From NCBI GenBank assembly GCA_005879535.1, contig VBKI01000096.1:1-41402 (forward strand): 41,402 nucleotides of DNA, read 5' to 3'. The position numbers and the translations under genes are program-made. This stretch comes from Deltaproteobacteria bacterium. Its GTDB lineage: Bacteria; Myxococcota; Myxococcia; Myxococcales; 40CM-4-68-19. Under the pieces are notes generated by a model. The model did no database searches. It worked only from the letters and a program-made list of their open reading frames with translations, and was not told the DNA's origin. Positions 1-19,658 of the stretch are shown here, one piece after another; position 1 is the stretch's first letter, and each line of letters starts with the position of its first letter.

Positions 1-210
1 CCGGACGTCCAGCCCCTCGCCCCCGCGGAACACCGCGGGTCCCATCTGATCGAAGAAGATGAAGGGACCGACCATGCGCCGCCGCATCGAGGGGAGCGCC
101 CGCCGGACCGTGAAGCCGCCCAGATCTCGCGTGCGCGGAAGGATCACCGTCTCGACCGGCGAGGCGGCATCGCGATCCACAAACGGTTCGTCGGGCATCG
201 TCCAGCTCAT
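1..210 (-). CDS. Pirin family protein (N-terminal part, runs off the window)
   Basis: The minus strand from the ATG at 210 reads open for 70 codons to the window edge. The translation contains GGFTVRRALP, then RRMVGPFIFFDQMGPA, which is the N-terminal signature of pirin cupins. A GGGGGAGG ribosome binding site lies about 8 bases before the ATG and fixes the start. Pirins are bicupin metal proteins; some have quercetinase activity and others act as regulators, and their role in most bacteria is unclear. The metal-binding histidines lie beyond the window, so activity cannot be judged. It is divergent from the oxidase operon, and the two share the 172-base region 211-382. Confidence 0.85.
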   Translation of the reverse strand, partial: MSWTMPDEPFVDRDAASPVETVILPRTRDLGGFTVRRALPSMRRRMVGPFIFFDQMGPAVFRGGEGLDVR

Positions 211-382
211 CGAAAGCCTCCCCCGCAACGATGCCGATGCGCCCGCGGCGTTGCTGTCGGCGTTCTGGCCACTGCCTACGTATTCTGACGCAGGTAGCGG
301 CCCGCGGAGAATGTTTGAGCACAAACGATCTGCGCGATCTGTCGCTTGTGGCGTGCGAGTTGCCATTGCTCTCCTCGGGCGC
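211..382. promoter_or_regulatory. Divergent intergenic region, pirin / oxidase operon
   Basis: This 172-base gap must hold the promoters of both the pirin gene and the oxidase operon. I see no convincing sigma-70 boxes. A short perfect inverted repeat, GTTTG-AGCA-CAAAC at 313-326, sits about 57 bases before the chosen ctaD start and could be a regulator site or a chance hairpin. An in-frame ATG at 311 would extend CtaD by 24 residues but has poor start-site spacing. Confidence 0.3.
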
Positions 383-2313
383 ATGAGCCGACCCGCGCGA
401 CGGCAGGAGGCCTTGCCGGCCGAAGGCAGCCCGAAAAGCTCGGACGAGGAGCTGGAAGCGAGCCTCGAGAAGATCTGGGAAGCGCCGCATACGCTGTTCG
501 GATGGCTGGGGACCGTCGACCACAAGCGGATCGGCATGCGGTACCTCGTCACCGCCATGGTCTTCCTGGTCGTCGGCGGCGTCGAAGCGCTGGTGATGCG
601 CATCCAGCTGTCTGGTCCCGAGCGCGACGTGCTCTCGCCGGAGGCATACGGCCAGTACTTCACCATGCACGGCGCGACGATGCTCCTCTGGTATGCCGCG
701 CCCGTTCTCTCCGGTTTCGGCAACTATCTCGTGCCGCTCCTGATCGGCTCGCGGGACATGTCGTTCCCCAGGCTGAACGCCTTCAGCTACTGGGCGTTCC
801 TGCTCTCCGGGCTGCTGCTCTACGCCAGCGTCTTCATCGGGCAGGCGCCCGACACAGGGTGGTTCTCCTACGTTCCGCTCAGCAACCGGCGCTACGATCC
901 CTCGTACAACCTGGACTTGCCATCAACTTCGTAACCACCATCTTCAAGCATCGGGCGCCGGGGATGAGCATCTCGCGCATGCCGCTGTTTCTGTACAGCA
1001 CGGGGACGACGGCGTTTCTCTCCATCCTCGCCATGCCGGCCTTGGCGGTGGCGTGCGTATTTCTCGAGCTCGACCGGCAGTGGAACTTCCATTTCTTCGA
1101 CGTGCGCGCCGGCGGCGATACCGTCCTCTGGCAGCACCTCTTCTGGTTCTTCGGCCATCCCTGGGTCTACATCGTCTTCCTCCCCTCTACGGGGATGATC
1201 TCGATGGTGCTGCCGGTCTTCGCCCGCCGTCCCATCGTCGCCTATCCCTGGGTCGCGGCTTCCACCGTGCTCACCGGCATCGTGGGGATGGGCGTCTGGG
1301 TCCACCACATGTTCGCCATCGGAATGAACCAGATGGCGATGAGCTTCTTCGCCGCCGCCAGCATGACCATCTCGCTTTTCTCCACCATCCAGATCTTCGC
1401 CTGGATCGCCACGCTCTGGGCCGGACGGCCGGTGCGCACAACCTCGCTGCTGTTCGCGCTCGGGTTCATCGCCACGTTCGTGATGGGCGGACTCTCCGGA
1501 GTGGTCACCGCGGTGATCCCGTTGGACTGGCAGGTGCACGACACCTACTTCGTCGTCGCGCACCTCCATTACGTGTTGATCGGCGCGAACGTCTTTCCGG
1601 TCTTCGCCGCCTTCTACTACTGGCTACCGAAGATCACCGGCCGGATGCTCGGCGAGCGCTTGGGCAAATGGAGCTTCTGGGTGATGTTCGCCGGGTTCAA
1701 CGTCGGATTCTTCCCCATGCACATGAGCGGCCTGCTCGGGATGCGGCGTCGCATGTACACGTTCGAGGCGGCCGATGGGATCACCGGCCTCAATGCCGTC
1801 ACCACCGCAGGCGCATTCGTGCTCGGGCTGGGAATCCTCCTCAGCTTGATCAACTTCTTCCTCTCGCTGCGCGGCGGCCGGACTGCGGGAAACAATCCCT
1901 GGAACGCGGACTCGCTGGAGTGGGCGACGACCTCTCCGCCGAAGGCGCACGCGTTCACGCATCTGCCGACCGTCGCGACACTGCATCCGCTTTGGGACGA
2001 TCACGACGAGTTCCACGACCCGGAGGGTGCGCGCGTCCTCGATCACGGGCGCCAGACGCTCTCCACCACCCCGTTCGAGGCGGAGGCCGAGTCGGTGTCG
2101 AGCGGCGAGCCGGAGAGCGTGATGCCGCTCTTGATGGCGCTGGCGCTGACTGCGACGCTTCTGGCGGTGCTCGCCCAGTCGCTGCGTCTGGCCGGTGCGT
2201 TCACCACCGTCGCAACGGTGGTCGCCGCGCTCTGGATGTGGCCGCGCCACGCGGAGACCGCCGAGCATCCGGACACCCACGAACAGCGACGCAAGGTGGA
2301 GCAGGCGAGATGA
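383..2313 (+). pseudogene. ctaD: Cytochrome c oxidase subunit I, frameshifted by a deletion
   Basis: This is the catalytic heme-copper subunit that reduces O2 in the inner membrane. The N-terminal part (383 to about 920) carries the heme-ligand region MHGATMLLW and the D-channel entrance, Asp at 755-757 and Asn at 776-778. The remainder is in another frame (about 921-2313). It has the CuB/heme histidines in GHPWVYI, VHHMF, VHDTYF and AHLHY. At the junction, SYNLD runs directly into AINFVTT, so about 15 residues of one transmembrane helix are missing and the frame is lost; the deletion is of 3n+1 bases, about 46. Two residues are unusual: Trp (1162-1164) replaces the D-channel Glu of the A1 motif HPEVY, and Gln (1390-1392) replaces the K-channel Lys. 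Two extra hydrophobic segments follow near the C-terminus. It is the first gene of the operon and its stop overlaps the next start (ATGA). Pseudogene or assembly error cannot be decided here; the family call is certain. Confidence 0.9.
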
Positions 2314-3628: not shown

Positions 3629-5470
3629 ATGCGCATCCGATGTGTGCTGCTGCTCGCGCTGCTCGCGCTTGGATGTCGCAAGGAGGAGAAATCCCTGCGT
3701 ACCGAGCGGGAAGGGCCGGTGACGACGCTCTCGGTGCAGGGTGCGAAGCCGAACGTCCGGCTGATCGCCCCGCTGGCGAACGGCGAGTGGCGGATTCCCG
3801 CCGGCGACTACGCGCATACGCGCTTCAGTCCCCTCGCGCAGATCGATGCCGGGAACGTCGGCAACCTCAAGATGATCACCGCGCTGCAGACCGGAGTGCC
3901 GCGCGGCCACGAAGGATCGCCGCTGGTGGTCGGGCACACGATGTACGCGGTCACGCCGTTCCCCAACAACCTGATCGCCGTGGATCTGACGAAGCCGGGC
4001 GGCCAGCTCAAATTCCTCTACGAGCCGCACCCTGATCCGCGGGCGGTGGGTATCGCCTGCTGCGACCTCGTCAACCGTGGGGCGTCGTACGGCGAGGGAA
4101 AGATCGTCTACAATCTGCTCGACGCGACGACGGTGGCGGTCGATGCGCAGACGGGCAAGGAAGTCTGGCGCACGCGGGTGGGCAACATCGACATCGGCGA
4201 GACCACCACCATGGCGGCGCTGGTGGTCAAGGACAAGGTGCTGGTCGGGTCCAGCGGCGGCGAGCTGGGCGTGCGCGGATGGATTGCTGCGCTCGACCTG
4301 AAGACGGGGAAGGAGCGCTGGCGCGCCTACAATACCGGCCCCGACAAGGACGTCCTCATCGGCGCAAGCTTCAAGCCGTTTTACGCCAAGGACCGGGGCA
4401 ATGACCTGGGCGCGACTTCCTGGACCGGCGACCAGTGGAAGCTCGGCGGAAGCAACGTCTGGGGATGGATCTCCTACGATCCGGAGCTGAACCTGATCTT
4501 CTACGGCACCGGGAATCCCGGCGTCTGGAACCCGGACCTGCGACCCGGCGACAACAAGTGGTCCTGCACGCTTTTCGCCCGCAATCCCGACACCGGCGAG
4601 GCGCGCTGGGCATACCAGGTCACCGCGCACGATCACTGGGACTACGACGAGATCATGGAGAGCGTCCTCGTCGACCTGGAATGGCGCGGGAAGATGCGCA
4701 AGCTGGTGCTGTATCCTGGACGCACCGGATACATGTACGTGCTCGACCGCGAGACCGGCGAGTTGCTCTCGGCGGAGCCGTTCCAGCCGGTGAACTGGGC
4801 CACCGGCTACGATCTTTCGACCGGCAAAGCGCGCGAGGTCGAGTCGAAGCACACGAAGATGGGAGAGGTGGTGGAGGACATCTGCCCGTCCTCGACCGGC
4901 GGCAAGGAATTCATTCCTTCGGCGTTCTCGCCACGCACGGGCCTGCTCTACATCCCGGCGCACAACACCTGCATGAACTACGAAGGGGTCGAGGCGAATT
5001 ACATCGCCGGCACGCCGTATCTGGGCGCGAGCGTGAAGATGTATCCCGGTCCGGGCGGGTATCAAGGCGAGCTCGTCGCCTGGGATCCGCTGAAGGCCAG
5101 GAAGATCTGGGGGATCCGCGACGAGAAGCTGCCCATCTACAGCGGCGTGCTGGCGACGGGCGGCGATCTCGTCTTCTTCGGGACGATGGACGGCTGGTTC
5201 GAGGCCGCCGACGCGCGCACCGGCACCGTCCTCTGGAAGCAGCAGACCGGCTCCGGGATCGTCGGCAACCCGATGACGTACGTCGGTCCGGACAAGAAGC
5301 AGTACGTCGCCGTCTATTCCGGCGTCGGCGGCTGGATGGGAGCGGTGGCGCAGCCGGACATCTCGGCGGACGACCCCTACGCCGCGCTCGGCGTCGTCGG
5401 GGCGATGAAGGAGATCAAGAAGATGACCGCGCCGGGCGGGACCCTTTACGTGTTCGGGCTGTCACCATGA
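3629..5470 (+). CDS. PQQ-dependent alcohol dehydrogenase, lanthanide type (XoxF-like), lipoprotein
   Basis: This 613-residue quinoprotein oxidises a primary alcohol in the periplasm and passes electrons to cytochrome c. Repeated propeller motifs (DAQTGKEVW, DLKTGKERW, DPLKARKIW) show the eight-bladed fold. The vicinal disulfide is Cys144-Cys145 (ACCDLVNRG). PQQ/metal residues visible by family alignment are Glu212 (GGELGVRG), Asn276 (GGSNVWGW) and Asp338. Asp338 begins an Asp-Tyr-Asp triplet (WDYD, 338-340). The second Asp is the extra ligand known from lanthanide-dependent XoxF/ExaF/PedH enzymes, where calcium-type MxaF has Ala. The N-terminus LLALLALGC is a classical lipobox with Cys16, unusual for XoxF, which is normally soluble. 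The gene has a GGAGG site 5 bases before its ATG and sits inside a cytochrome oxidase operon between two cytochromes c. The substrate (methanol, ethanol or other) cannot be read from the sequence. Confidence 0.92.
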   Translation: MRIRCVLLLALLALGCRKEEKSLRTEREGPVTTLSVQGAKPNVRLIAPLANGEWRIPAGDYAHTRFSPLAQIDAGNVGNLKMITALQTGVPRGHEGSPLVVGHTMYAVTPFPNNLIAVDLTKPGGQLKFLYEPHPDPRAVGIACCDLVNRGASYGEGKIVYNLLDATTVAVDAQTGKEVWRTRVGNIDIGETTTMAALVVKDKVLVGSSGGELGVRGWIAALDLKTGKERWRAYNTGPDKDVLIGASFKPFYAKDRGNDLGATSWTGDQWKLGGSNVWGWISYDPELNLIFYGTGNPGVWNPDLRPGDNKWSCTLFARNPDTGEARWAYQVTAHDHWDYDEIMESVLVDLEWRGKMRKLVLYPGRTGYMYVLDRETGELLSAEPFQPVNWATGYDLSTGKAREVESKHTKMGEVVEDICPSSTGGKEFIPSAFSPRTGLLYIPAHNTCMNYEGVEANYIAGTPYLGASVKMYPGPGGYQGELVAWDPLKARKIWGIRDEKLPIYSGVLATGGDLVFFGTMDGWFEAADARTGTVLWKQQTGSGIVGNPMTYVGPDKKQYVAVYSGVGGWMGAVAQPDISADDPYAALGVVGAMKEIKKMTAPGGTLYVFGLSP

Positions 5471-5904
5471 AGTCGGCGCTGCGCGCGTGGATGGTTGTGG
5501 CGGCGTCGTGCGCCTGCGCCAGGCCGCCCGACACGGCCCCGGACGGGCAGCGGTCCGTCGTACGTCAGGCAGTCGGACCCATTCCTGGCGTGGGCGATCT
5601 TCCGGTGGCGAAAAACCCGCGCGGCATGGATCGCAACGTGCTTCAGGAAGGCCGGCGGCTCTTCCGCCAGTACAACTGCGAGGGGTGCCACGGCGGCCAC
5701 GCCGGCGGCGGCATGGGTCCGAGCCTGCGTGACGAGATCTGGCTGTATGGGAACACGCCCGGGAAGATCTTCAACTCCATCGCCGAGGGGCGTGCGCACG
5801 GGATGCCGGCTTGGGGGACGCGGCTTCCCGACCGCGACATCTGGGCGCTCACCTCGTACATCCAGTCGCTGCGCACGCGCGACGAGCCGGAGCCGCCGAG
5901 ATGA
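5467..5904 (+). CDS. Lipoprotein monoheme cytochrome c
   Basis: This 145-residue cytochrome c has its heme site CEGCH at residues 71-75 and a probable Met ligand in GRAHGMPAWG. The layout resembles class I cytochromes c of the cbb3/XoxG type, with an unstructured linker of about 45 residues between the N-terminus and the heme domain. The N-terminus (MVVAASCACA) ends its hydrophobic stretch in Cys, so lipid anchoring is likely. Its start overlaps the dehydrogenase stop and its stop overlaps the ctaC start. It is a second candidate relay between the dehydrogenase and the oxidase. Confidence 0.87.
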   Translation: MKSALRAWMVVAASCACARPPDTAPDGQRSVVRQAVGPIPGVGDLPVAKNPRGMDRNVLQEGRRLFRQYNCEGCHGGHAGGGMGPSLRDEIWLYGNTPGKIFNSIAEGRAHGMPAWGTRLPDRDIWALTSYIQSLRTRDEPEPPR

Positions 5905-6893
5905 GACGCGCTCCGTTCCTGGTGGTGCTCGCAAGCGGCTGCGCGTCGGACCTCGACGCCCTTTCGCCGGCCGGACCGGCGGCGCGGAAGCTCGCGGACC
6001 TGGGCTCGCCGGTGCTCGTGTTCTTCATCATCATCTCGGCGGTGATGTGGGCCCTCCTCATCTGGGTGGCCCTTCGCAAGACCGGGACGCTGGCCGAGCA
6101 CGCCGCGCCCGACGCGGGCGGGGGCAAAGGCTGGGTCGCATATGGCGGCTTCGTCGTCCCTGGCGCCGCCTTCACGGCGGTATTCATCGCAACGCTTCGG
6201 ACGATGAACGCCTTTCCCGTCGATCATCAGCAGCATGCGGCGCCCGAGATCCGGGTCGTGGGGCATCAGTGGTGGTGGGAGATGCACTACCTCTCGAAAG
6301 ACCTGAACCAGGTGTTCGTCACCGCCAACGAGATCCATATCCCCGCCGGCCGGCCGGTGGATCTCGAGCTGCTCTCGTACGACGTCATCCACTCGCTCTG
6401 GGCGCCGCGTCTGCACGGGAAGGTCGATCTGATTCCGGGGATGCGAAATTTCATCCGGCTCCAGGCGGACCAGCCGGGGCGCTATGCCGGAGCGTGCGCC
6501 GAGTTCTGCGGCTTGCAGCACGCGCACATGAAGTTCGTGGTGGTGGCGGACGCGCCGGAGGACTACGGCAAATGGCTCGCGCAGCAGCGCAAGCCCGCGC
6601 GGCAGCCGGATACGGAAGAGACGCGCAGGGGAAAGCAGATCTTCCTCGGCGGTCCCTGCGTGCTCTGCCATACCGTCCGCGGCACGGACGCGCGGGGAAC
6701 GGTGGGACCCGACCTGACCCACCTGGCGACCCGGTCGACGATCGCAGCCTGGTTGCCGCGCGATCTGGCGAATCTGCACGCCTGGGTCGTCAATGCTCCC
6801 TCGCTGAAGCCGGGTGCGCAGATGCCGCCGCTCAACCAGTTCAGCGGACAGGAGCTGCACGACCTCGTGGCGTACCTCCAGATGCTCAAATGA
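5901..6893 (+). CDS. ctaC: Cytochrome c oxidase subunit II with fused cytochrome c domain (caa3 type)
   Basis: The 330-residue product accepts electrons at the binuclear CuA centre. A lipobox-like LASGC near the N-terminus is followed by two membrane helices, at about residues 35-58 and 75-98. The cupredoxin domain starts with VVGHQWWWE. CuA ligands are His164 (VIHSLW), Cys199, Glu201, Cys203, His207 and Met210 (CAEFCGLQHAHM). A C-terminal cytochrome c domain carries CVLCH at residues 253-257, with a Met in GAQMPPLNQF. The fusion defines a caa3-type oxidase, which needs no separate soluble cytochrome c at the CuA step. The gene comes at the end of the oxidase genes, separated from ctaD and ctaE by the dehydrogenase, an unusual order. 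The subunit looks intact. Confidence 0.93.
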   Translation: MRRAPFLVVLASGCASDLDALSPAGPAARKLADLGSPVLVFFIIISAVMWALLIWVALRKTGTLAEHAAPDAGGGKGWVAYGGFVVPGAAFTAVFIATLRTMNAFPVDHQQHAAPEIRVVGHQWWWEMHYLSKDLNQVFVTANEIHIPAGRPVDLELLSYDVIHSLWAPRLHGKVDLIPGMRNFIRLQADQPGRYAGACAEFCGLQHAHMKFVVVADAPEDYGKWLAQQRKPARQPDTEETRRGKQIFLGGPCVLCHTVRGTDARGTVGPDLTHLATRSTIAAWLPRDLANLHAWVVNAPSLKPGAQMPPLNQFSGQELHDLVAYLQMLK

Positions 6894-9698: not shown

Positions 9699-10421
9699 AT
9701 GCCTCCGCCCCGTGACTCCTCCAGCGCGCACCAGTTCGAGACGGTCCGCAAGGTCCGCCGCTACGAGCAGGTGGCCGAGCAGATCCGCCGGCTGATCTCG
9801 GAGGGTGCGCTGAAGCCCGGCGATCTGCTCCCGCCGGAGCGCGACCTGGCCGTCCGCCTCGGCGTAGGGCGCAGCTCGGTCCGGGACGCGGTGCGGACGC
9901 TGGAGGTGATGGGCATCCTCGAACCGCGGCAGGGCCACGGCACGGTGGTGCGCGATCTCTCCACCGACTCGCTGGTGGTGCCTCTCGCCAGCGTCCTCAC
10001 CCGCAAGCGCGAGATGGTCGCGGAGCTCCTCGACGTCCGGCGAATCATCGAGCCGGCGCTGGCTGCGCGCGCCGCCCGCAACGCCAGCGAGGACGAGGTC
10101 GAGGAGCTGGCGGAGATCCTCCGCCGCCAGGAGGAGAAGATGCGCCGCGGCGAGCCCGCCATGGAGGAGGACTCGCAGTTCCACTACGCGCTGGCGCTCG
10201 CCGCCCGCAACAGCGTCCTGCACCGCGTCCTCGACGTGCTGATGGACCTCTTGCGCGAGAGCCGCGCCCGGTCGCTGCAGGTCCCCGGGCGCCTCGAACG
10301 CTCGTACGCGGGCCACCGGCGCATCCTGCGCGCCATCAAGCGCCGAGATCCGGCGGCGGCGGAGAAGGCAGTCAAGCAGCACTTGAGCGAGATCGAGGCA
10401 ATCCTGATGCGTCAGATTTGA
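9699..10421 (+). CDS. GntR/FadR-family transcriptional regulator (FCD domain)
   Basis: The 240-residue product has an N-terminal winged helix (about residues 20-85) with the GntR signature LKPGDLLPPERDLAVRLGVGRSSVRDAVRTLE, split here as LKPGDLLPPERDLA and GVGRSSVRDAV. The C-terminal all-helical FCD domain (about residues 100-230) has the usual metal/ligand residues Asp158, His162 (DSQFH), His206 (AGHRRI) and His228 (KQHLSEI). FCD regulators sense small carboxylates such as lactate, glycolate or pyruvate. The gene sits directly upstream of the oxidoreductase genes with only 11 bases between them, so it is probably their regulator and also controls itself through the palindromes before its start. 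The actual effector is not visible in the sequence; oxalate is a reasonable guess. Confidence 0.92.
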   Translation: MPPPRDSSSAHQFETVRKVRRYEQVAEQIRRLISEGALKPGDLLPPERDLAVRLGVGRSSVRDAVRTLEVMGILEPRQGHGTVVRDLSTDSLVVPLASVLTRKREMVAELLDVRRIIEPALAARAARNASEDEVEELAEILRRQEEKMRRGEPAMEEDSQFHYALALAARNSVLHRVLDVLMDLLRESRARSLQVPGRLERSYAGHRRILRAIKRRDPAAAEKAVKQHLSEIEAILMRQI

Positions 10422-10432
10422 TGGAGGTGGAG

Positions 10433-11599
10433 ATGGGCCGTCTTTTCGCAGTGGAGATCGTCTACCGGGGCATCTTCCAGAAGAAGCTCGCCGCGAACAT
10501 CAGCCGCGCCATCGTGCTCGCGGCGCACAAGGAAGGAAAGCCGGGCATCTCGTTCGGGCGCTACGGCGACAGCCCCGAGCGCAACGGAATCCCCGCCAAG
10601 TATTTCGCCATCGTGGCCAGCGACGAGCTCACGCTGGAGGAGGGCAAGGCGAAATACGAGCCGAAGGAGGTGGACATCAGCATTTGCGTCGATGACACCC
10701 TCTTCAAGGGCGTGGAGTCGTGGGCCTGGTACGGTCTGCAGCCCATCAACAAGCTGCTCAAGCCCGGCGGGACGCTGATCGTCACCTCGCTCAAGGAACC
10801 GGAGCAGCTGATCCCGCTCGCCCACCGCAAGGAGACCCCGTACAACCTCGCCGTCCTCAAGGGTACGCCGAGCTTCTCCGGGCTCTGGGTCTACAAGGAC
10901 GACCACACCGACGTGCGCGTCCTCGGCGTGATGGCCCGGGTGCTTCCGGAGCTGTTCAGCCTCGGTTCGGTGCAGGAGACCATCCGCGAGGAATGGAAGA
11001 ACGAGCTGAAGGCCACCTCCGCGCTTCGCGCCTTCGAGCGCGTCAGCACCGTCACGGTCAACCCCAACCAGGGCAACCCGGAGGAACCCTACAAGTTCGA
11101 CATGCCGAAATGGACCGAGATGCGCGAGGGAATCGCCATTCCCGGAATCCCCCTCGGCGGCCAGATGAAGGATCCGGTCACGGGCGAGGAAGGCGGGTGG
11201 CGTCCCGGCCGCAACACCACCTTCAAGAAGTGGGCGACCCGCACCATGCGTCCGGTGGTCGACTTCGAGAAGTGCATCAAGTGCACGCTGTGCTGGTTGC
11301 AGTGCCCGGACAGCGTCTTCGACGTCACCCCCGACGGGCTCTATGACGCGAACCTCGAAGCCTGCTGCGGCTGCGGCGTCTGCGAGGCGGTCTGCCCGGT
11401 AGAGAAGTGCGTCACGATGGTGAACGAGACGCAATTCACGGACAACGCCAGCCAGTGGGAGGCGTGGCGCACTGACAAGCCCGCCTACGAAGCGCACCTC
11501 GCCGAGTGGATCAAGGATCGGCCGGAACGGTCGCACGGCTTCCGCTTCCGCGGCCAGTACCAGCAAGAACTTCCCAACGAGTTCGCCCGGCAGGGCTGA
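10433..11599 (+). CDS. 2-oxoacid oxidoreductase gamma-delta fusion subunit (oxalate oxidoreductase type)
   Basis: The 388-residue product fuses the gamma domain (about residues 1-190: VEIVYRGIFQKKLAANISRAIVLAAHKEGK) to the ferredoxin-like delta domain. Delta has two [4Fe-4S] motifs: C281-x2-C284-x2-C287-x3-C291 (CIKCTLCWLQCP), and Cys311 or 312, Cys314, Cys317 and Cys321 (CCGCGVCEAVCP), with another Cys at 326. It carries electrons from the thiamine site to ferredoxin. Such a fusion is characteristic of oxalate oxidoreductase, as described for Moorella. About 50 residues follow the second cluster, with no cysteine. I chose ATG 10433 because GGAGGTGG lies just before it; ATG 10421, overlapping the regulator stop, is an alternative. 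It is the first enzyme gene of the operon. Confidence 0.85.
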   Translation: MGRLFAVEIVYRGIFQKKLAANISRAIVLAAHKEGKPGISFGRYGDSPERNGIPAKYFAIVASDELTLEEGKAKYEPKEVDISICVDDTLFKGVESWAWYGLQPINKLLKPGGTLIVTSLKEPEQLIPLAHRKETPYNLAVLKGTPSFSGLWVYKDDHTDVRVLGVMARVLPELFSLGSVQETIREEWKNELKATSALRAFERVSTVTVNPNQGNPEEPYKFDMPKWTEMREGIAIPGIPLGGQMKDPVTGEEGGWRPGRNTTFKKWATRTMRPVVDFEKCIKCTLCWLQCPDSVFDVTPDGLYDANLEACCGCGVCEAVCPVEKCVTMVNETQFTDNASQWEAWRTDKPAYEAHLAEWIKDRPERSHGFRFRGQYQQELPNEFARQG

Positions 11600-11611
11600 G
11601 AGAGGGCTGCC

Positions 11612-12844
11612 ATGGCTGAAGTGATTGCCCATACCCCCGAGCAGAAGCCCGCAACGGACCAGACCTCGCTGATCACCGGCAGCGAGGCGATCGCCGTCGC
11701 CTGCAAGCTGGCTGACGTCGACGTGATCACCGGATATCCGATCCGGCCCTACGACACCGTGATGCAGTACATCGCCAAGCTCGTCTCCAACGGCGAGATG
11801 GACTGCGAGTACATCATCGCCGAGGGCGAGCACTCGCAGTTCGAGATCGTCAAGCACGCCAGCGCCTGCGGCGCGCGCGTGTTCTGCGGCTCGTCGGGCG
11901 TGGGCTGGATGTACGCGATGGAGGCGCTCACCGTCACGCCGGCCTTGCGCATCCCGATGGTGGCGATGGTCGGCAACCGCGCCCTCGACGATCCCGGCGC
12001 CTTCGGCGTCGAACACAACGACGCCCTCGCCGTCCGCGACCTGGGCTGGCAACTGGTCTGGGTGGACAACGCGCAGGAGGCGCTGGACACGGCCTTGATC
12101 GCCTACAAGGTGGCCGAGGACCGCCGCGTCTTCCTCCCCTGCGCCATCTCCTGCGACGGCGCCTTCCTCACCCACTCGCAGGCGATCGTGAAGATTCCCT
12201 CGCAGGCGAAGGTTGACCAGTTCCTGCCAAGATACGATCGCGGTGACCTGCTCTTGCATCCGGACAATCCGATCACCGTCGCGCCGCAGGCCAACGAGGA
12301 CTGGCTGATGGAGATCCGGCGCCAGACGGCGGCGGGGATGGAGCGCTCTCCGCAAGTCATCCGCGAAGCGTACACGCAGTTCACGAAGATCTTCGGGCGC
12401 GACTACGGCAATCCGTTCTTCGAGGAGTACATGACCGACGACGCCGACGTGGTGATCGTCGGGATGGGCACCTTGTCGAACCCGGTGCGCGTCGCGATCC
12501 GCGAGATGCGGAAAGACGGCAAGAAGGTCGGCTTCGTCCGCGTCCGCTGGTTCCGCCCCTTCCCCGCCGAGGAGCTGGCGAAGTCGCTAACGCGGTTCAA
12601 GGCGGTGGGGATCATCGACCGCGACTTCTCGCTCGGCGCGCCGCACTCCAGCGGCGTGCTGGCGACGGAAGTGCGCGCCGCGCTGTACCCGGTGGCGAAC
12701 CGCCCGCCGCTGCTCGCGTTCATCTGCGGCCTGGGAGGCCGCGAGGTGACGCTGCCCGACGTGAAGAACATGACCGACAAAGTCTACGCCGCCGCGGCCG
12801 GCAAGCCGCAGCCCTTGACGCAGTGGATCGGCCTGCGGGAGTGA
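11612..12844 (+). CDS. 2-oxoacid oxidoreductase alpha subunit, oxalate oxidoreductase active-site residues
   Basis: The 410-residue product is the alpha subunit (pyrimidine-binding domain I and domain II) of a thiamine-dependent 2-oxoacid:ferredoxin oxidoreductase. The motif GYPIRPYD places Arg45 where pyruvate enzymes have Thr (GYPITP). Further on, GNRALDDPGAF gives Arg123, Asp126 and Phe131. From memory, Moorella oxalate oxidoreductase uses alpha Arg31, Arg109, Asp112 and Phe117 for binding oxalate and for its switch loop. All four positions match with one constant offset of 14. Glu71-Gly-Glu73 (IIAEGEHSQ) is the usual conserved stretch. A GAGAGG site precedes the ATG, and the next gene follows 12 bases after the stop. 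Substrate by homology of residues: oxalate to two CO2 plus two electrons. Confidence 0.87.
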   Translation: MAEVIAHTPEQKPATDQTSLITGSEAIAVACKLADVDVITGYPIRPYDTVMQYIAKLVSNGEMDCEYIIAEGEHSQFEIVKHASACGARVFCGSSGVGWMYAMEALTVTPALRIPMVAMVGNRALDDPGAFGVEHNDALAVRDLGWQLVWVDNAQEALDTALIAYKVAEDRRVFLPCAISCDGAFLTHSQAIVKIPSQAKVDQFLPRYDRGDLLLHPDNPITVAPQANEDWLMEIRRQTAAGMERSPQVIREAYTQFTKIFGRDYGNPFFEEYMTDDADVVIVGMGTLSNPVRVAIREMRKDGKKVGFVRVRWFRPFPAEELAKSLTRFKAVGIIDRDFSLGAPHSSGVLATEVRAALYPVANRPPLLAFICGLGGREVTLPDVKNMTDKVYAAAAGKPQPLTQWIGLRE

Positions 12845-12856
12845 CGGGAGAAAACC

Positions 12857-13845
12857 ATGGCCATCAATGAGCGCGAGCTTGCGGACCTCGTCAACCTGCG
12901 CCCCACCCAACACACCGGACCTGTCAGGGGTGCGAGTCGGCGCTGGTGATGAAGATGATGGTGAAGGCGGCGGGCCCGCGCACCATCGTGCTCGGCAGCA
13001 CCGGATGCATGTACGTCGCCAACACCACCTACTACTCGACGAGCTGGGTGGTGCCCTGGATGCACACGCAGCTCGGCTCCAGCGGCTCCGCCGCGCTCGG
13101 CGCCGCCGCGGCGCTGAAGGCGCTGATGCGCAAGGGCAAGATGAAGGAGGAGCCCATCAACGTCATCGCCTTCTGTGGCGACGGCGGCGGAGCGGACATG
13201 GGCCTTGCCGCCATCTCCGCCACGCTCACGCATCCCGACTACAACTGCCTGATCCTCATGTACGACAACGAGTCGTACGCCAACACGGACATCCAGCTTA
13301 GCGGCTCGACTCCCTGGGGCGCGCACACCACCTTCAGCCCGCCGGGCACCAAGAAGCGGATCATGCACCACCGCTGGAAGAAGAACATGGCGGGGATGAT
13401 GGCGGCCGGCCACCCGGAGTGCCGCTACGTGGCGACGGTGGACATGTCCTATCCCGTGCTGGCGATGAACTCGGTGCGCAAGGCGCTCTCCATCGGTGGA
13501 CCGACCTTCATCCACTCGCTCGATCCGTGCCCCAAGGGCTGGGACTACGATCCGATGCAGTCGCACGAGCTGGGTGAGCTGGCCGTGCTGAGCGGCGTGT
13601 GGCCGCTCTACGAGGTGGAGAACGGCGTGCTGCGGCTCGTGGGCAAGACGCGCGACCTCGCCGACGGAAGGCTGAAGCGCGTGCCGGTACGCGACTACCT
13701 GAACCGGCAAGGGCGCTTCGCGCACTTCACCGACGACGACATCGAGTACTTCCAGTCCAAGATCGACCAGATGTGGACCAAGTGGCTCGTGCCCGGAGTG
13801 ATTCCCTTCCGCATGCAGGTGGAAGAGGATCGTCCGCCAGCCTGA
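12857..13845 (+). CDS. 2-oxoacid oxidoreductase beta subunit (thiamine-binding), frameshifted near the N-terminus
   Basis: From ATG 12857 the frame reads MAINERELADLVNLRPTQ and then shifts. The continuation is in another frame from about 12907, with HRTCQGCESALVMKMM, and stays open to the stop at 13845. One missing base or a small insertion at about 12905-12913 explains it. With the frame restored the protein has about 330 residues. The Cys pair in TCQGC, a third Cys in GSTGCMYV and a fourth in LDPCPKGW match the cluster ligands of this family. GDGGGADMG followed by YDNESYANTD is the thiamine diphosphate/Mg site. If translation began at GTG 12946, the first two cluster cysteines would be lost and the enzyme would probably not work. 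A sequencing or assembly slip is the likeliest cause, but a true lesion cannot be excluded. Confidence 0.85.
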
Positions 13846-14027: not shown

Positions 14028-15008
14028 ATGAGGCAGCTGGGCTGGATGGGAAGGTCTCTCTTTCTCCTCGCCGTGGCGGTGGTGCTCGTTCCCCGGAGGG
14101 CTGCCGCCGCATGGCAGCCGACGAAACCGGTCGAGTTCGTCATCCCCGCGGGCACCGGGGGAGGGGCCGATCTGATGGCCCGGTTCGTCACCGCCATCAT
14201 CCAGAAGGAGAATCTCGCCCCAGTGACCTTTCTCCCCACGAACAAGTCCGGAGGCGCGGGCGCGGAAGCTTTCCTCTACGTGAAGGAGAGCAAGGGCAAT
14301 CCGCACGTCATCGTCATCACCCTCTCCAACCTCTTCACCACGCCGCTGCACACCGGGGTCCCATTCAACTGGAAGGACCTGACGCCGGTCTCCATGCTGG
14401 CGCTCGATTACTTCATCCTCTGGGTGAACGGCGAGACGCCGTACAAGACCGCGACGGACTACATCAACGCGGCGAAGGCCGGACAATTCAAGATGGGCGG
14501 CACGGGGGCGGCCCAGGAGGACCAGATCCTCACCATCCAGCTGGAGCAGAATTTCGGAATCAAGCTGATCTATGTGCCGTTCAAGGGCGGCGGCGAGGTC
14601 TGCACCAACCTGGTCGGCAAGCACGTCGACTCCACCGTCAACAACCCCTCCGAGTGCGTCGGCAACTGGAAAGCGAACCGCGTGCGCCCGCTGGCGGTGC
14701 TGGACAGCTCGCGGATCAAGCTTCCCGATTGGGACAAGATCCCCACCATGAAGGAAGCTACGGGCAAGGACGTCGCGTATCTCATGTTGCGCGGGATCTT
14801 CACCGCGCCCGGCGTCTCCAAAGACGTGCAGGACTACTACGTCGGACTGATGAAGAAGGTGACCCAGTCGGCGGACTGGAAGAAATACATTTCCGACAAC
14901 GCCTTGAAGGACGACTTCATGTCCGGCCCCGAGTTCGTCAAGTGGCTCGAGCAAGCCGAGATCCTGCACAAGGATCTGATGAGCAAGGGCGGCCTGCTGA
15001 AAAAATAG
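14028..15008 (+). CDS. tctC: Tripartite tricarboxylate-type transporter, periplasmic binding protein
   Basis: The 326-residue product has an N-terminal signal peptide (hydrophobic SLFLLAVAVVLV, cleavage near residue 27 after AAA). The mature part has the Bug/TctC pattern: KPVEFVIPAGTGGGADLMAR for the ligand-clamping loop, then KSGGAGAEAF, and later GAAQEDQILTIQLEQNFGIKLIYVPFKGGGE. Bug proteins bind carboxylates without a positive pocket, using backbone and waters. The acid cannot be read from sequence; the upstream oxalate-type oxidoreductase makes oxalate or another C2-C4 acid the best guess. A GGGGAGG site precedes the ATG. It is separated from the enzyme genes by a 182-base structured gap and is followed by tctB and tctA. 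Confidence 0.88.
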   Translation: MRQLGWMGRSLFLLAVAVVLVPRRAAAAWQPTKPVEFVIPAGTGGGADLMARFVTAIIQKENLAPVTFLPTNKSGGAGAEAFLYVKESKGNPHVIVITLSNLFTTPLHTGVPFNWKDLTPVSMLALDYFILWVNGETPYKTATDYINAAKAGQFKMGGTGAAQEDQILTIQLEQNFGIKLIYVPFKGGGEVCTNLVGKHVDSTVNNPSECVGNWKANRVRPLAVLDSSRIKLPDWDKIPTMKEATGKDVAYLMLRGIFTAPGVSKDVQDYYVGLMKKVTQSADWKKYISDNALKDDFMSGPEFVKWLEQAEILHKDLMSKGGLLKK

Positions 15009-15025: not shown

Positions 15026-15493
15026 ATGCGGACGGGACAGATCCTGATGGCGCTTGGCATCATCGCCTTCGCCGTCGCGGTGATGGTGCAGGCGGTCGAT
15101 GTCGGATCGAGGTGGGTCGACGGTCAGGCAGGGGCGGGGTTCTTCCCCTTCTGGCTGGGAGTGCTGCTCGCGGTCTGCGGCGTGATCGCGCTCGTCCAGG
15201 CGGTGCGGACGTCGCCGGGAGCGGCGAAGTTCTTCCACGACCGGACCGGCGTGATGTCGGTGGTGAAGGTAACGGTGACCGCCGCCGGCATGCTCGTCCT
15301 CACCTACCTGGTCGGCTTCCGCCTGGCGTCGATCGCCTACCTCTTCGTGTACCTCCGCTTCATCGGCAAGCACCGCTGGCCGGCGGTCATCGCGATGAGC
15401 CTGCTCATCCCCATCAGCGGCTACTATCTCTTCGAGCGCGTTCTCCAGGTCGCTCTTCCCCGTGGGATCATCGAGATCCCCTACCTCGACTGA
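15026..15493 (+). CDS. tctB: Tripartite tricarboxylate-type transporter, small membrane subunit
   Basis: This 155-residue membrane protein has four predicted helices, at about residues 6-25, 40-58, 77-95 and 110-130. It contains GQAGAGFFPFWLGVLLAVCG, the usual TctB start (GPGFFP-like), and ends in the LPRGIIEIPYLD-type tail. TctB is a poorly understood partner of the large TctA subunit. It lies 17 bases after tctC with a GGGGAGG site and 9 bases before tctA. The order C-B-A is standard for this family. Confidence 0.88.
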   Translation: MRTGQILMALGIIAFAVAVMVQAVDVGSRWVDGQAGAGFFPFWLGVLLAVCGVIALVQAVRTSPGAAKFFHDRTGVMSVVKVTVTAAGMLVLTYLVGFRLASIAYLFVYLRFIGKHRWPAVIAMSLLIPISGYYLFERVLQVALPRGIIEIPYLD

Positions 15494-15502
15494 GAGTGGA
15501 CC

Positions 15503-17107
15503 GTGGGGACGACCCTTCATGATTTGAGCTACGGCCTCGGGGTTGCAGTACACCCGGTCAACCTGCTCGCCGGCGCGCTGGGAGTGATCGTCGGGACCAC
15601 TATCGGCGTGATCCCCGCGCTGGGCCCCACGCAAGGGGCGGCGCTGCTCCTGCCCATCGTCTTCCGCCTTCCACCCGCCACCGGGTTGATCTTTCTCTCC
15701 GGCCTCTACATGGGGGCGATCTACGGCGGCTCGGTGACCTCCATCCTCTTCAACATCCCCGGCACCCCGATGTCGGTCGCCAGCGCCTTCGACGGGTATC
15801 CGATGGCGCTGAAAGGGCACGGCTCCCGCGCTCTCGCCGGGTCGGCGTTGTCCGCGTTCATCGCCGGAACGGCGTGCATCGTCCTCTTCACCTTCTTCGC
15901 CCGGCCGCTGGCCGAATACGCCCTTACCTGGGGACCCCCGGAATACTTCTCGGTGATGCTCCTCGCCTATGCCGCGTTGGCCGGGCTCGAAGGCGGGAGC
16001 CTGGTCAAGAGCAGCATTTCCGTGCTCATCGGACTGATCCTCACCGGCGTCGGCGTCGACATCATCACCGGCATGCCGCGCATCACCTTCGGGTCCACCA
16101 ACCTGCTGGCGGGCGTGAAGTTCCTGGTGGTGGTGGTGGGCATGTTCGGCATCGGCGAGCTCCTCCGCGCGGCGGAGGAGAACATCATGACGAAGTCGGC
16201 GGTGAAGGCGAAGGTCCGGATTGCGGACATCGTCGGCGCCCTGAGGGAGATGGCGGGGTACTGGAAGACGTTCCTCCGCTCCACGCTGATTGGGTTCTGG
16301 ATCGGCGTCCTTCCCGGCACCGGCGCTACCCCGGCCTCGTTCGTCGGCTACGGGCTGGCGAAGCGCTTTTCGAAGAACCCGGAGAAGTTCGGCACCGGCG
16401 CGCTGGAGGGCGTGGTCGCGCCCGAGTCAGCCGCGTCTTCCGCTGAGGTAGGCTCGTTGCTCCCGCTGGTGACCCTCGGCATTCCCGGCTCGCCGACGGC
16501 GGCGGTGATCCTCGGCGCGCTGATGATCTGGGGCCTGCAGCCCGGGCCTTTGCTGATGATCGATCACCCGGAGATCGTCTGGGGCTTCATCGCCAGCATG
16601 TACATCGCGGCGACGCTCTCGATGATCCTCAACCTGTTCGCAATCCCGCTCTGGACCCAGATCCTCAAGATCCCTTTCACCGTCCAGGTCCCGCTGATCG
16701 TGTTCCTCTGTTACATCGGCGGGTACACCGAGAACAACACGCTCTTCACCATGTGGATGGTGCTGGTCTTCGGCGTGATCGGATTCCTGTTCAAGAAGTT
16801 CGGATACCCCCTCTCGCCGCTGGTGGTCGCCATCGTGCTGGGCGACGACACAGAGTCTTCGTTCCGCCGCAGCCTGATCCTCTCCAGCGGAAACCCGTCC
16901 ATTTTCTTCACCCGACCCGTATCGCTCGTTCTGCTGCTGCTCGCGCTCGCGCTCTTCCTCTTCCCGCTCGTCTCGCCGGCGATGAAGAAATTCCGCAAGC
17001 GGCCGGCCGCGAGCGCGCGCATCGCGAAAGAAAGCGAGGCGGCGTCACCGGCGCCGCCGCTGCCTGAAAACGTCCAGGTCGACGGGTCCAAGGTGGAAGG
17101 AGGATGA
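15503..17107 (+). CDS. tctA: Tripartite tricarboxylate-type transporter, large membrane subunit
   Basis: The 534-residue product starts at GTG 15503 and is the ion-coupled permease of the transporter. Both family repeats are visible. The first is [20 protein letters not shown] with [20 protein letters not shown], and the second is [17 protein letters not shown] with [30 protein letters not shown]. About twelve hydrophobic segments follow the expected pattern. The cytoplasmic tail after about residue 495 is rich in Lys, Arg and Ala. Its stop overlaps the start of the exchanger gene (ATGA), so the exchanger is translated with it. Confidence 0.92.
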
Positions 17108-18330
17108 GCTTTGCCAGGCGCACGAGACACATCCTCTGGCTCCTCGCAGCCAGTCTTGTCGCCCTGCAATGGATCGTCGTGCGGCTTGCCGGCGTGCAAC
17201 TCCCGCATCTCTGGGTAGCGATTCTCTCCGGCGTCGGCATCTTCGGGGCAGCGGTCCTCCTCTCCTGGGCAGCGGAGGTCGCGCAGGTCGACATCCCGCA
17301 GAGCCTGGCGCTCGCGTTCCTGGCGCTGATTGCCGTGCTGCCCGAGTACGCGGTCGACATGTATTTCGCCTGGCAAGCGGGAAAGGACCCCACGTACACG
17401 CAGTACGCCACCGCAAACATGACCGGCGCGAACCGGCTGCTGATCGGCTTCGGCTGGGCGGCAGTGGTGGTGTGCTACTGGCTCAAGACTCGAAAGAAAG
17501 CGGTGGAGCTGGAGCCGTCGCATTCCATGGAGATTTCGTACCTGACGCTGGCGACGGCGTACTCCTTCGTCATCCCGCTCAAGGGCACGCTCTCCCTGAT
17601 CGACACGGCGGTGCTGCTCGCCATCTTCGGGTTCTACGTCGTCTCCGCGTCCCGCGCGGGAATGTCGGAGCCCGAGCTGGGAGGGCCGTCCGAGCTGCTG
17701 GGCGAGCTACCCAAGTTCCAACGCCGGTCCGCGACGGTCGCCTTGTTCGCGATCGCGGGTTTGACCATCGGCCTGGCCGCAGAGCCGTTCGCGGAGAGTC
17801 TCCTGGCGACGGGCCGGGCCTACGGGGTGGAGGAGTTCATCCTCGTCCAGTGGATCGCTCCCCTGGCTTCCGAATCGCCGGAGTTCATCGTCGCCATTCT
17901 CTTTGCGCTGCGCGGCAATCCAGGCGCGAGCATCGGTACGTTGATCTCCTCGAAGGTGAACCAGTGGACGCTGCTCATCGGAATGCTTCCCCTTGCATAC
18001 TCCGCCTCCTCCGGCCAAGCCACGGCGATGTCCCTCGATCGCCGGCAGGTCGAGGAGGTCCTCCTCACCGCGGCGCAGTCGCTGTTCGGCGTGGCGGTGA
18101 TCGCGAATTTGCGCTTCTCGCTGATCGAGGCGCTGGTGATCGCGGTCCTCTTCGGAAGCCAGCTCTTCTTTCCCTCGCCCGCCGTGCGGTACGTCTATTC
18201 GTTCGGATATATCGCCCTCACCCTGATGTTCCTGATCACGAACCGGGATAACCGCCGCGGGTTCTTCGACGTCCGTCGCCTCCGTCCTGGTCATGCGACG
18301 AATGGCCCTGCGCTGACCTCGCGCTCCTGA
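17104..18330 (+). CDS. Sodium/calcium exchanger (CaCA) family antiporter
   Basis: The 408-residue membrane protein has the two alpha repeats of the CaCA family. The first, [14 protein letters not shown] with [12 protein letters not shown], places Glu81; the second, [15 protein letters not shown] with [20 protein letters not shown], places Glu260. These Glu residues bind the transported cation in the family. About ten membrane segments are present. CaCA proteins usually export Ca2+ in exchange for Na+ or H+. The start overlaps the tctA stop, so it belongs to the oxalate-type operon. That suggests removal of calcium that enters with, or is freed from, an oxalate salt. Transport specificity for Ca2+ rather than another cation is inferred. 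The gene converges with the antiporter gene only 2 bases away. Confidence 0.82.
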
Positions 18331-18332
18331 CC

Positions 18333-19658
18333 TCAGAGCAGGAACACCCAGGTCAAGACGACGAACAGCGGAATCAGGATGGCCACGCTGTAGGCCATGT
18401 ATCCGAAGAAGCCCGGCATCCGGACCCCGCCCTGCTCGGCGATGGCCTTGACCATGAAGTTCGGGCCGTTGCCGATGTACGTGTTGGCGCCCATGAAGAC
18501 CGAGCCGATGGAGATGGCCTCGAGCAGCGCGGCGCCGCGCTCGCTGAGCAGCAGCTCGCCCAGGTTTTCCGAGTTGGTGCCTACGGTGCCGCTCGCCGCG
18601 GAAGCGAAGGTCAGATAGGTAGGCGCATTGTCGAGAAAGGAGGAGAGCGTGCCGCTGGCCCAGAAATACTGCCAGGGGTGCTGGAGCCCGAGCTCGCTGC
18701 CTCTGGCGTTGAGGATGGCGAGAGCGGGGATCATGGTGGCGAAGATGCCCGCGAACAGCGCCGCCACTTCCAGGATGGGGCCCCAGGCGAAGCCGTTCTC
18801 GCCGCGCAGGCCTTTGGGGGTGGTCCACAGGGAGAGCGCCGCCATGGCCAGCATGCCCGCGTCCTGGAACAACGGGTGCAAGCGCAGGGTGCCGGACGCC
18901 AGCAGCACCGCCGCTACGCCTCCCAGATAGAGCAGGTTTCTCTTCCCGGCGATGCTCAGGGGAACCTGGTGCTTGACTGCGATCCGATCCAGGTCGCCGG
19001 GCCGGGCAAGGTCCTCCTGGCGGAAGATCGTCGAGTCCACGATGTAGAAGAGGACGAGCAGGATGCCGTTGACGAACATCCATTCCCGCCAGAGCCGCAA
19101 CGTCCAGGTGAAGGGAACGCCGCGGAGGAAGCCGAGGAAGAGCGGAGGGTCGCCCATCGGCGTCAGCAAGCCGCCGCCGTTCGCGACCACGAAGATGAAG
19201 AAGACGAAGACGTGCGCCTTCCGCAGGCGGATGGAGTTGGCGCGCAACAGCGGCCGGATGAGCAGCATCGACGCGCCCGTCGTCCCGATCACCGAGGCGA
19301 GCACGGCTCCGATGGCGATCAGCACGGCGTTGAGGCCTGGAGTTCCGGCGAGGGTGCCCCGGACGACGATCCCTCCGGAGATGACGAAGAGGGCTCCGAG
19401 CAGGACGATGAAGGCCACGTACTCGCTGGCGGCATGCACCACTGCCGTGGGGTCGAGCGTGGCCGTCCAGATCGCCACGGGCACGCCGAGCACGGCGCTG
19501 AGGACCGCCTTGTTGAGGTTGGACTCCCAGAGCTTCCCGGCCGCCAGCGGCAGCACCGCGATGCAAACGAGCATGGCAGCGAAAGGGACCACGCTCCAGA
19601 GCGGAAGGAGGGTCCCGAGGTGCGGTGCGTTGGGGGTCGCTGCCAGGAGGCCGTGCAC
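18333..19658 (-). CDS. Sodium:proton antiporter-like transporter (NhaD/CitMHS-like)
   Basis: This 441-residue membrane protein has about twelve segments. It carries SVIGTTGASMLLIRPLLRAN, GGLLTPMGDPPLFLGFLRGV and SSFLDNAPTYLTFASAA, the pattern of the NhaD/CitMHS/ArsB ion transporter superfamily, where the NAPT and TPMGDPP loops lie at the transport site. I favour Na+/H+ exchange; carboxylate transport cannot be excluded. The start is a GTG at 19658, and a nearby ATG was not found in a better position. It is convergent with the calcium exchanger and divergent from the M13 peptidase, sharing 93 bases with it. Confidence 0.8.
   Translation of the reverse strand: MHGLLAATPNAPHLGTLLPLWSVVPFAAMLVCIAVLPLAAGKLWESNLNKAVLSAVLGVPVAIWTATLDPTAVVHAASEYVAFIVLLGALFVISGGIVVRGTLAGTPGLNAVLIAIGAVLASVIGTTGASMLLIRPLLRANSIRLRKAHVFVFFIFVVANGGGLLTPMGDPPLFLGFLRGVPFTWTLRLWREWMFVNGILLVLFYIVDSTIFRQEDLARPGDLDRIAVKHQVPLSIAGKRNLLYLGGVAAVLLASGTLRLHPLFQDAGMLAMAALSLWTTPKGLRGENGFAWGPILEVAALFAGIFATMIPALAILNARGSELGLQHPWQYFWASGTLSSFLDNAPTYLTFASAASGTVGTNSENLGELLLSERGAALLEAISIGSVFMGANTYIGNGPNFMVKAIAEQGGVRMPGFFGYMAYSVAILIPLFVVLTWVFLL

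Follow-up and report, generated by a model that had tools for sequence, protein, structure and literature searches.

A sister clade of the Moorella-type oxalate oxidoreductase, with oxalate as its probable substrate, in bacteria that carry terminal oxidases

To our knowledge, oxalate oxidoreductase (OOR), which burns oxalate to CO2, has until now been known from acetogens that avoid oxygen. The enzyme of Moorella thermoacetica (PDB 5c4i, 5exd, 5exe) consists of three subunits: alpha, beta, and a fused gamma-delta. Here we describe an operon of the same layout from a soil bacterium of the Myxococcota (Deltaproteobacteria bacterium, GenBank assembly GCA_005879535.1). It lies in a stretch of 41,402 nucleotides, referred to as the window in the following, which is one whole contig (VBKI01000096.1) of a genome of 5.16 Mb in 118 contigs. 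The genes for gamma-delta (10433–11599, 388 aa), alpha (11612–12844, 410 aa) and beta (12857–13845) follow each other on the plus strand. Judged by its sequence, the enzyme is a member of a second OOR clade, termed type 2, which is sister to the Moorella type, and it is not a Moorella-type enzyme. We hypothesize, with a rough probability of 0.8, that this clade serves the oxidation of oxalate in bacteria that respire oxygen. Statements on catalysis follow PMC5020499 and general knowledge of the enzyme.

Type-2 OOR and Moorella OOR have in common the three subunits with fused gamma-delta, the YPIRP motif of alpha with Arg31, the alpha residues Arg109, Asp112 and Phe117 (Moorella numbering), the thiamine pyrophosphate (TPP) motif and cluster cysteines of beta (intact in relatives of the window), and eight cysteines of delta; Moorella OOR is also the best match in sequence and fold. 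Differences are found in the alpha sequence (43% identity), in the plug loop, which reads RALDDPGAFG in type 2 and RTLDPPGDFG in Moorella (no Asp116, an extra Asp at position 113), and in gamma-delta, which in type 2 is extended at its C-terminus by about 50 residues and has further inserts. The hosts differ as well: type-2 hosts possess terminal oxidases, and 35 of 36 are without carbon monoxide dehydrogenase/acetyl-CoA synthase (CODH/ACS). Pyruvate:ferredoxin oxidoreductase (PFOR) of Methanosarcina acetivorans (PDB 9bt4) shares the fold, the domain set and the TPP and 4Fe-4S chemistry, but has separate gamma and delta subunits, a YPITP motif and neither Asp nor Phe in the plug loop, displays 33% alpha identity, and falls into a separate clade. 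Oxygen-tolerant 2-oxoacid:ferredoxin oxidoreductases (OFORs) of aerobes such as Sulfolobus (PDB 5b46, 5b48) place the superfamily in aerobic organisms; however, these enzymes have two subunits, act on pyruvate or 2-oxoglutarate, and are devoid of the ferredoxin domain that type-2 OOR keeps (PMC5020499). Aerobic oxalotrophs also break down oxalate in a TPP-dependent manner, by the oxalyl-CoA decarboxylase/formyl-CoA transferase route, which in contrast to OOR depends on coenzyme A (CoA) and yields formate.

Ancestry and conserved residues

All three subunits of the window find OOR as their top match in the PDB. Alpha scores 330 bits with 5c4i_A and 222 bits with the next structure, the Methanosarcina PFOR. 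Gamma-delta matches the OOR delta chain 5c4i_B at 7e-23, and beta matches 5c4i_C at 286 bits, the query in this case being the N-terminus of a relative (L006) joined onto the beta body of the window. Foldseek analysis with the predicted alpha model displays 5c4i_A first (TM 0.88). With the predicted gamma-delta model the top matches are all OOR delta chains (TM 0.42–0.45), the domain packing of the model being unlike that of the complex. Since pLDDT of the predicted alpha-only model falls below 50 at residues 123–141, exactly in the plug loop, this model has no bearing on oxalate binding. The gamma-delta fusion had been proposed from the sequence before and is confirmed: the cysteines of the ferredoxin domain, which is of the kind with two [4Fe-4S] clusters, are all present, and the eight (C281, C284, C287, C291, C311, C314, C317, C321) are invariant in an alignment of 42 sequences.

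In a mixture-model tree of 47 alpha sequences (IQ-TREE), OOR forms a clade apart from the pyruvate enzymes (support 100/100), which splits into a Moorella type (100/99; Moorella, genome G073 and two Acidobacteriota) and type 2 (100/99), the latter with the window. The alpha tree comprises these three groups only, and the sister relation of type 2 and Moorella type depends on the outgroup root, for which other OFORs were used. A FastTree phylogeny with 2-oxoglutarate-type rows added displays a single OOR clade as well (support 1.0). The original prediction had read these genes as OOR in an apparently aerobic bacterium; the alpha phylogeny places the window with Moorella OOR and away from the pyruvate enzymes, and a position among the latter was not seen.

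In the alignment to 5c4i_A, residues Arg45, Arg123, Asp126 and Phe131 of the window stand opposite Arg31, Arg109, Asp112 and Phe117, at the constant offset of 14 that had been predicted. Equivalents of all four are kept in 101 type-2 sequences wherever the position is covered; a loss of the arginines in close homologues, which would speak against OOR, is thus not observed. The further claim that the four residues distinguish OOR from pyruvate enzymes holds for three of them. Among 17 pyruvate- and 2-oxoglutarate-type sequences, Thr (or Ser) is found at the position of Arg31, and none has an equivalent of Asp112 or Phe117, whereas the Arg109 equivalent is common to all 17 and hence non-diagnostic. 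This position has been described as conserved, and YPIRP of Moorella OOR as unique in comparison with YPITP of the OFOR family (PMC5020499). Chance residue matches were ruled out by the conservation in about 100 homologues together with the lack of Arg31, Asp112 and Phe117 in the 17 others.

Alternatively, the genes could encode a ferredoxin oxidoreductase for pyruvate or for 2-oxoacids in general. Such an enzyme would share Arg109, which is common to all families, and might be suspected from the NCBIfam scores of alpha, where PorA reaches 358 bits next to 375 for OOR. However, the OOR clade with its 100/100 support already contradicts this reading, window alpha carries YPIRP and not YPITP and does not group with PFORs, the PDB scores differ clearly (330 versus 222 bits), and oxalate genes are linked to the operon in relatives. 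Tree and motif rule out such an enzyme, and we consider a misreading of this kind highly improbable.

The nearest named relatives of the window in the alpha tree are Myxococcota. The type-2 clade occurs in Myxococcota, Acidobacteriota, Rokubacteria/Methylomirabilota, Chloroflexota, Nitrospinota and others, and many of its hosts are uncultured. At E ≤ 1e-90, window alpha finds matches in 55 of 95 Rokubacteria/Methylomirabilota genomes, 21 of 400 Chloroflexota and 12 of 396 Acidobacteriota, the weakest of these matches (43–46% identity) being perhaps Moorella-type or deep branches; at 1e-100, 7 of 195 Myxococcota genomes match. In the phylum of genome G080, Moorella OOR finds matches in 33 of 43 genomes at 1e-60; this cut-off is loose, and a few of the matches are not OOR. 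Only distant relatives (≤36% identity) were found in plasmid records. Contamination by an acetogen was rejected, as the operon lies on a contig with coxA, has relatives in the same genus and family, and belongs to a genome without CdhC.

Two side observations concern the branching of the clade. Loci L101, L104 and L106 combine a type-2 plug loop with the sequence YPIRPYTEV, which resembles YPIRPYT of Moorella, and may indicate how the change of the loop came about; together with Acidobacteriota and Chloroflexota matches at 56–64% identity they represent deep branches of type 2 that are barely represented in the tree. In two Acidobacteriota (L016, 6361–8850; L021, 12409–14921; each with the alpha/beta copies that follow), a second alpha/beta pair of Moorella type lies behind the type-2 OOR and adjoins a flavoprotein of 613–680 aa with Fer4_20, Pyr_redox_2 and Fer4_7 domains (scanned in L016), which makes a candidate NAD(P)-coupled OOR.

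Plug loop, neighbouring genes and the substrate

The genes that accompany type-2 OOR point to oxalate as its substrate; this support is independent of the enzyme itself and is drawn from relatives, not from the window. A major facilitator superfamily (MFS) gene is present in 33 of 80 loci, mostly within 200 nt 3′ of beta. A single representative (L024, 12381–13781), on which the assignment as OxlT was tested, scores 481 bits with the NCBIfam oxalate/formate antiporter equivalog TIGR04259 (cut-off 335) and has OxlT as best PDB match. It retains Arg272 and Lys355 of OxlT, which we take to bind oxalate. In 14 further type-2 loci TctC, the substrate-binding protein of a tripartite tricarboxylate transporter, is encoded directly 3′ of beta, as it is in the window. 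One or both transporter types were found in 38 of the 52 loci with at least 3.5 kb of sequence after beta. Finally, seven loci encode an AMP-forming ligase with a PanE-like reductase beside it; the representative ligase best matches oxalate-CoA ligases (oxalyl-CoA synthetase; 422 bits versus 257 for the next kind).

The ligase and the PanE/ApbA-like reductase are located at 5300–7826 in L024, with homologues in L006, L012, L016, L020, L021 and L022, mostly upstream of OOR. The pair resembles the oxalyl-CoA reductase route to glyoxylate, and may possibly assimilate oxalate by this route.

Several observations weigh against oxalate oxidation by the type-2 enzyme or by its copy in the window. Although the OOR equivalog is the best-scoring NCBIfam model for each subunit, all scores remain under the cut-off (alpha 375 of 500, beta 319 of 590, delta 103 of 230). 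Neither transporter type is present in the clusters scored at 14 of the 52 loci. In the window, no oxalate-specific gene adjoins the operon except the ambiguous Tct system, no OxlT-type gene was found beside it, and the beta gene is interrupted (see below). Asp116 is described as important in the bait-and-switch mechanism of OOR, along with Arg31 (PMC5020499). This key switch residue was missing from the residue list of the original prediction; its counterpart in the window is Ala130, and the type-2 rows display Ala in 99 of 101 cases, one Ser and one gap. Pro113 of Moorella, on the other hand, corresponds to Asp127 in the window and to Asp in all 101 type-2 rows, while the Moorella loop is the same in all four Moorella-type rows. 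About 14 further alpha columns are clade-specific. Mainly because of the changes at Asp116 and Pro113, type 2 is named here a variant of OOR and not plain OOR, and its catalysis may differ from that of the Moorella enzyme.

The same changes could reflect an altered specificity, in that the type-2 enzyme would oxidize another small acid (e.g. glyoxylate, mesoxalate or oxaloacetate) and the oxalate genes nearby would serve a shared pathway. The identity of 43% to Moorella OOR leaves room for such drift, Tct transporters serve many carboxylates, and an FMN-dependent dehydrogenase and other TPP enzymes are located near the Chloroflexota copies. However, OxlT-type antiporters are directly linked at many loci, with the presumed oxalate-binding residues kept in the tested copy, the operon is also linked to oxalyl-CoA synthetase, and the equivalents of Arg31 and Arg109 are retained. 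A different substrate therefore appears unlikely, and type 2 probably represents a new OOR variant clade that acts on oxalate.

If so, oxalate would enter the cell via TctCBA (window) or OxlT (relatives) and would be attacked by TPP on alpha/beta, with Arg45 and Arg123 holding its carboxylates. The mobile plug loop (123–132) would shift the electrostatics, Asp127 perhaps taking the role of Moorella Asp116. Two CO2 would be released per oxalate, and two low-potential electrons would reach ferredoxin by way of the clusters in beta and delta and then enter the respiratory chain.

Host gene content and oxygen

The terminal oxidase genes ascribed to this organism by the original prediction were confirmed, as heme-copper oxidase genes are found in the window (59–2313, 5811–6893) and elsewhere in the genome. 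COX1 scores above cut-off in 36 of 36 host genomes (about 34 distinct ones, as G010/L005 and G002/L008 apparently are the same genomes under two handles). CdhC of CODH/ACS is present in one of the 36; the other 35, including the genome described here, are without it. Terminal oxidases are a capacity for oxygen respiration and not proof of OOR working in air, and we infer aerobic use of type-2 OOR from the gene content of the hosts. The reading as OOR in an apparently aerobic bacterium is thus upheld in part: tree, arginine residues, oxalate genes of relatives and host oxidases support it, while the enzyme belongs to a sister clade without Asp116, the beta gene is interrupted, and aerobic use follows from gene content.

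Alternatively, the enzyme may be active only under anoxia in facultative hosts and have acquired no new oxygen tolerance, which would be compatible with oxalate as the substrate. Many hosts stem from soil, groundwater or sediment with fluctuating oxygen, and gamma-delta retains the ferredoxin domain that oxygen-tolerant archaeal OFORs lack (PMC5020499). The heme-copper oxidases in all hosts, which include SAR202-type bacteria, and the lack of CdhC in nearly all of them argue against such a restriction, although they are no proof of expression in air. We regard it as a real possibility, if not the expected one. The roughly 50 residues by which gamma-delta extends past the Moorella end are conserved. 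PFOR of Desulfovibrio africanus owes its protection to a C-terminal domain (PMC5020499); that the extension of type-2 gamma-delta shields a cluster from oxygen is speculative.

Oxalyl-CoA decarboxylase is above cut-off in none of 34 host genomes (best score 521 of 739 bits), and oxalate decarboxylase in three of 34. Hence, in most hosts tested oxalate is probably broken down mainly by OOR. We put forward only tentatively, at somewhat less than even odds, the more far-reaching proposal of a mechanistically altered OOR in which the switch aspartate has changed its place, from 116 to 113, and the ferredoxin subunit is capped at its C-terminus; such an enzyme would work in oxygen as the main oxalate consumer of several abundant lineages without cultured members from soil, groundwater and the sea.

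Oxalate is a major product of plants and fungi, and the oxalotrophs to which its loss from soil is credited are detected by genes such as oxc, frc and oxdC. Pathway types that are described as restricted to either acetogens or eukaryotes were left out of a survey of oxalotrophy from 2023 (PMC10192776). The present data suggest that oxalate is consumed by a widespread route which would escape current marker-gene surveys. Provided that oxalate is the substrate of type-2 OOR, the 55 Methylomirabilota/Rokubacteria genomes and parts of the Acidobacteriota, Chloroflexota and Myxococcota would represent oxalate consumers that have gone unrecognised, gaining low-potential electrons from oxalate without CoA activation. 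The enzyme would provide a natural example of an OFOR with ferredoxin domain in bacteria that respire oxygen, and at the same time a natural variant on which the bait-and-switch mechanism could be probed. No paper on OOR in aerobes was found in the literature, in which subscription papers are mostly unsearchable, so that an earlier mention is possible. A paper on Tectomicrobia predicts oxalate as an energy source, the enzyme being unnamed in the accessible part of its text.

The operon in the window and its interrupted beta gene

The genes at 9.7–18.3 kb of the window, all on the plus strand, encode a regulator, gamma-delta, alpha, beta, TctC, TctB, TctA and a protein of the Na/Ca exchanger family. 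Within beta, the start codon ATG (12857) precedes the CQGC motif (12922) by 65 nt, versus 123 nt in relatives. This net deletion of 58 nt, which is not found in the relatives examined, costs the gene about 20 codons and changes its reading frame. The frame of the ATG stops at about 12949, whereas the main frame is open from 12871 to 13845. The latter has no ATG, GTG or TTG upstream of CQGC; its first start codon is a GTG at 12946, past the first two cluster cysteines. The TPP site and the predicted set of cluster cysteines are present in the sequence, but only across the frame break, which separates the first CxxC from the start; in relatives they are intact.

The break may indicate a pseudogene cluster decaying in this strain, which would be compatible with oxalate oxidation by the clade; in addition, of six other genomes in the genus, three have no alpha match. 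On the other hand, both alpha and gamma-delta are undamaged and keep every key residue, and a split between frames is also seen in two of the five COX1 genes of this genome (527–1821 in the window; 53–1368 in contig C48), three being intact. Together with the beta break, these split genes make an assembly or sequence error a serious possibility beside gene decay. The break either renders the enzyme of this strain inactive or is possibly an assembly error; decay of the whole operon appears rather unlikely.

The first gene of the conserved cluster (9699–10421) encodes a transcriptional regulator of the GntR/FCD family (Pfam FCD 4e-30, GntR 4e-20). Counting the window, 51 of 81 loci have a homologue, at a median position directly upstream. 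Behind beta follow the genes for TctC (14028–15008, Pfam TctC 2.7e-22; predicted oxalate uptake), the small membrane subunit TctB (15026–15493, Pfam TctB 5.5e-19) and the large membrane subunit TctA (15503–17107, Pfam TctA 2.9e-144). The end of tctA is overlapped by the gene of the Na+/Ca2+-exchanger-family protein (17104–18330, Pfam Na_Ca_ex 7.6e-28), of which a homologue occurs at one further OOR locus (L073). Beyond it, a gene of the CitMHS_2 citrate transporter family is located on the minus strand (18333–19658). The exchanger, with this gene beside it, may possibly serve calcium efflux or handling during the use of calcium oxalate.

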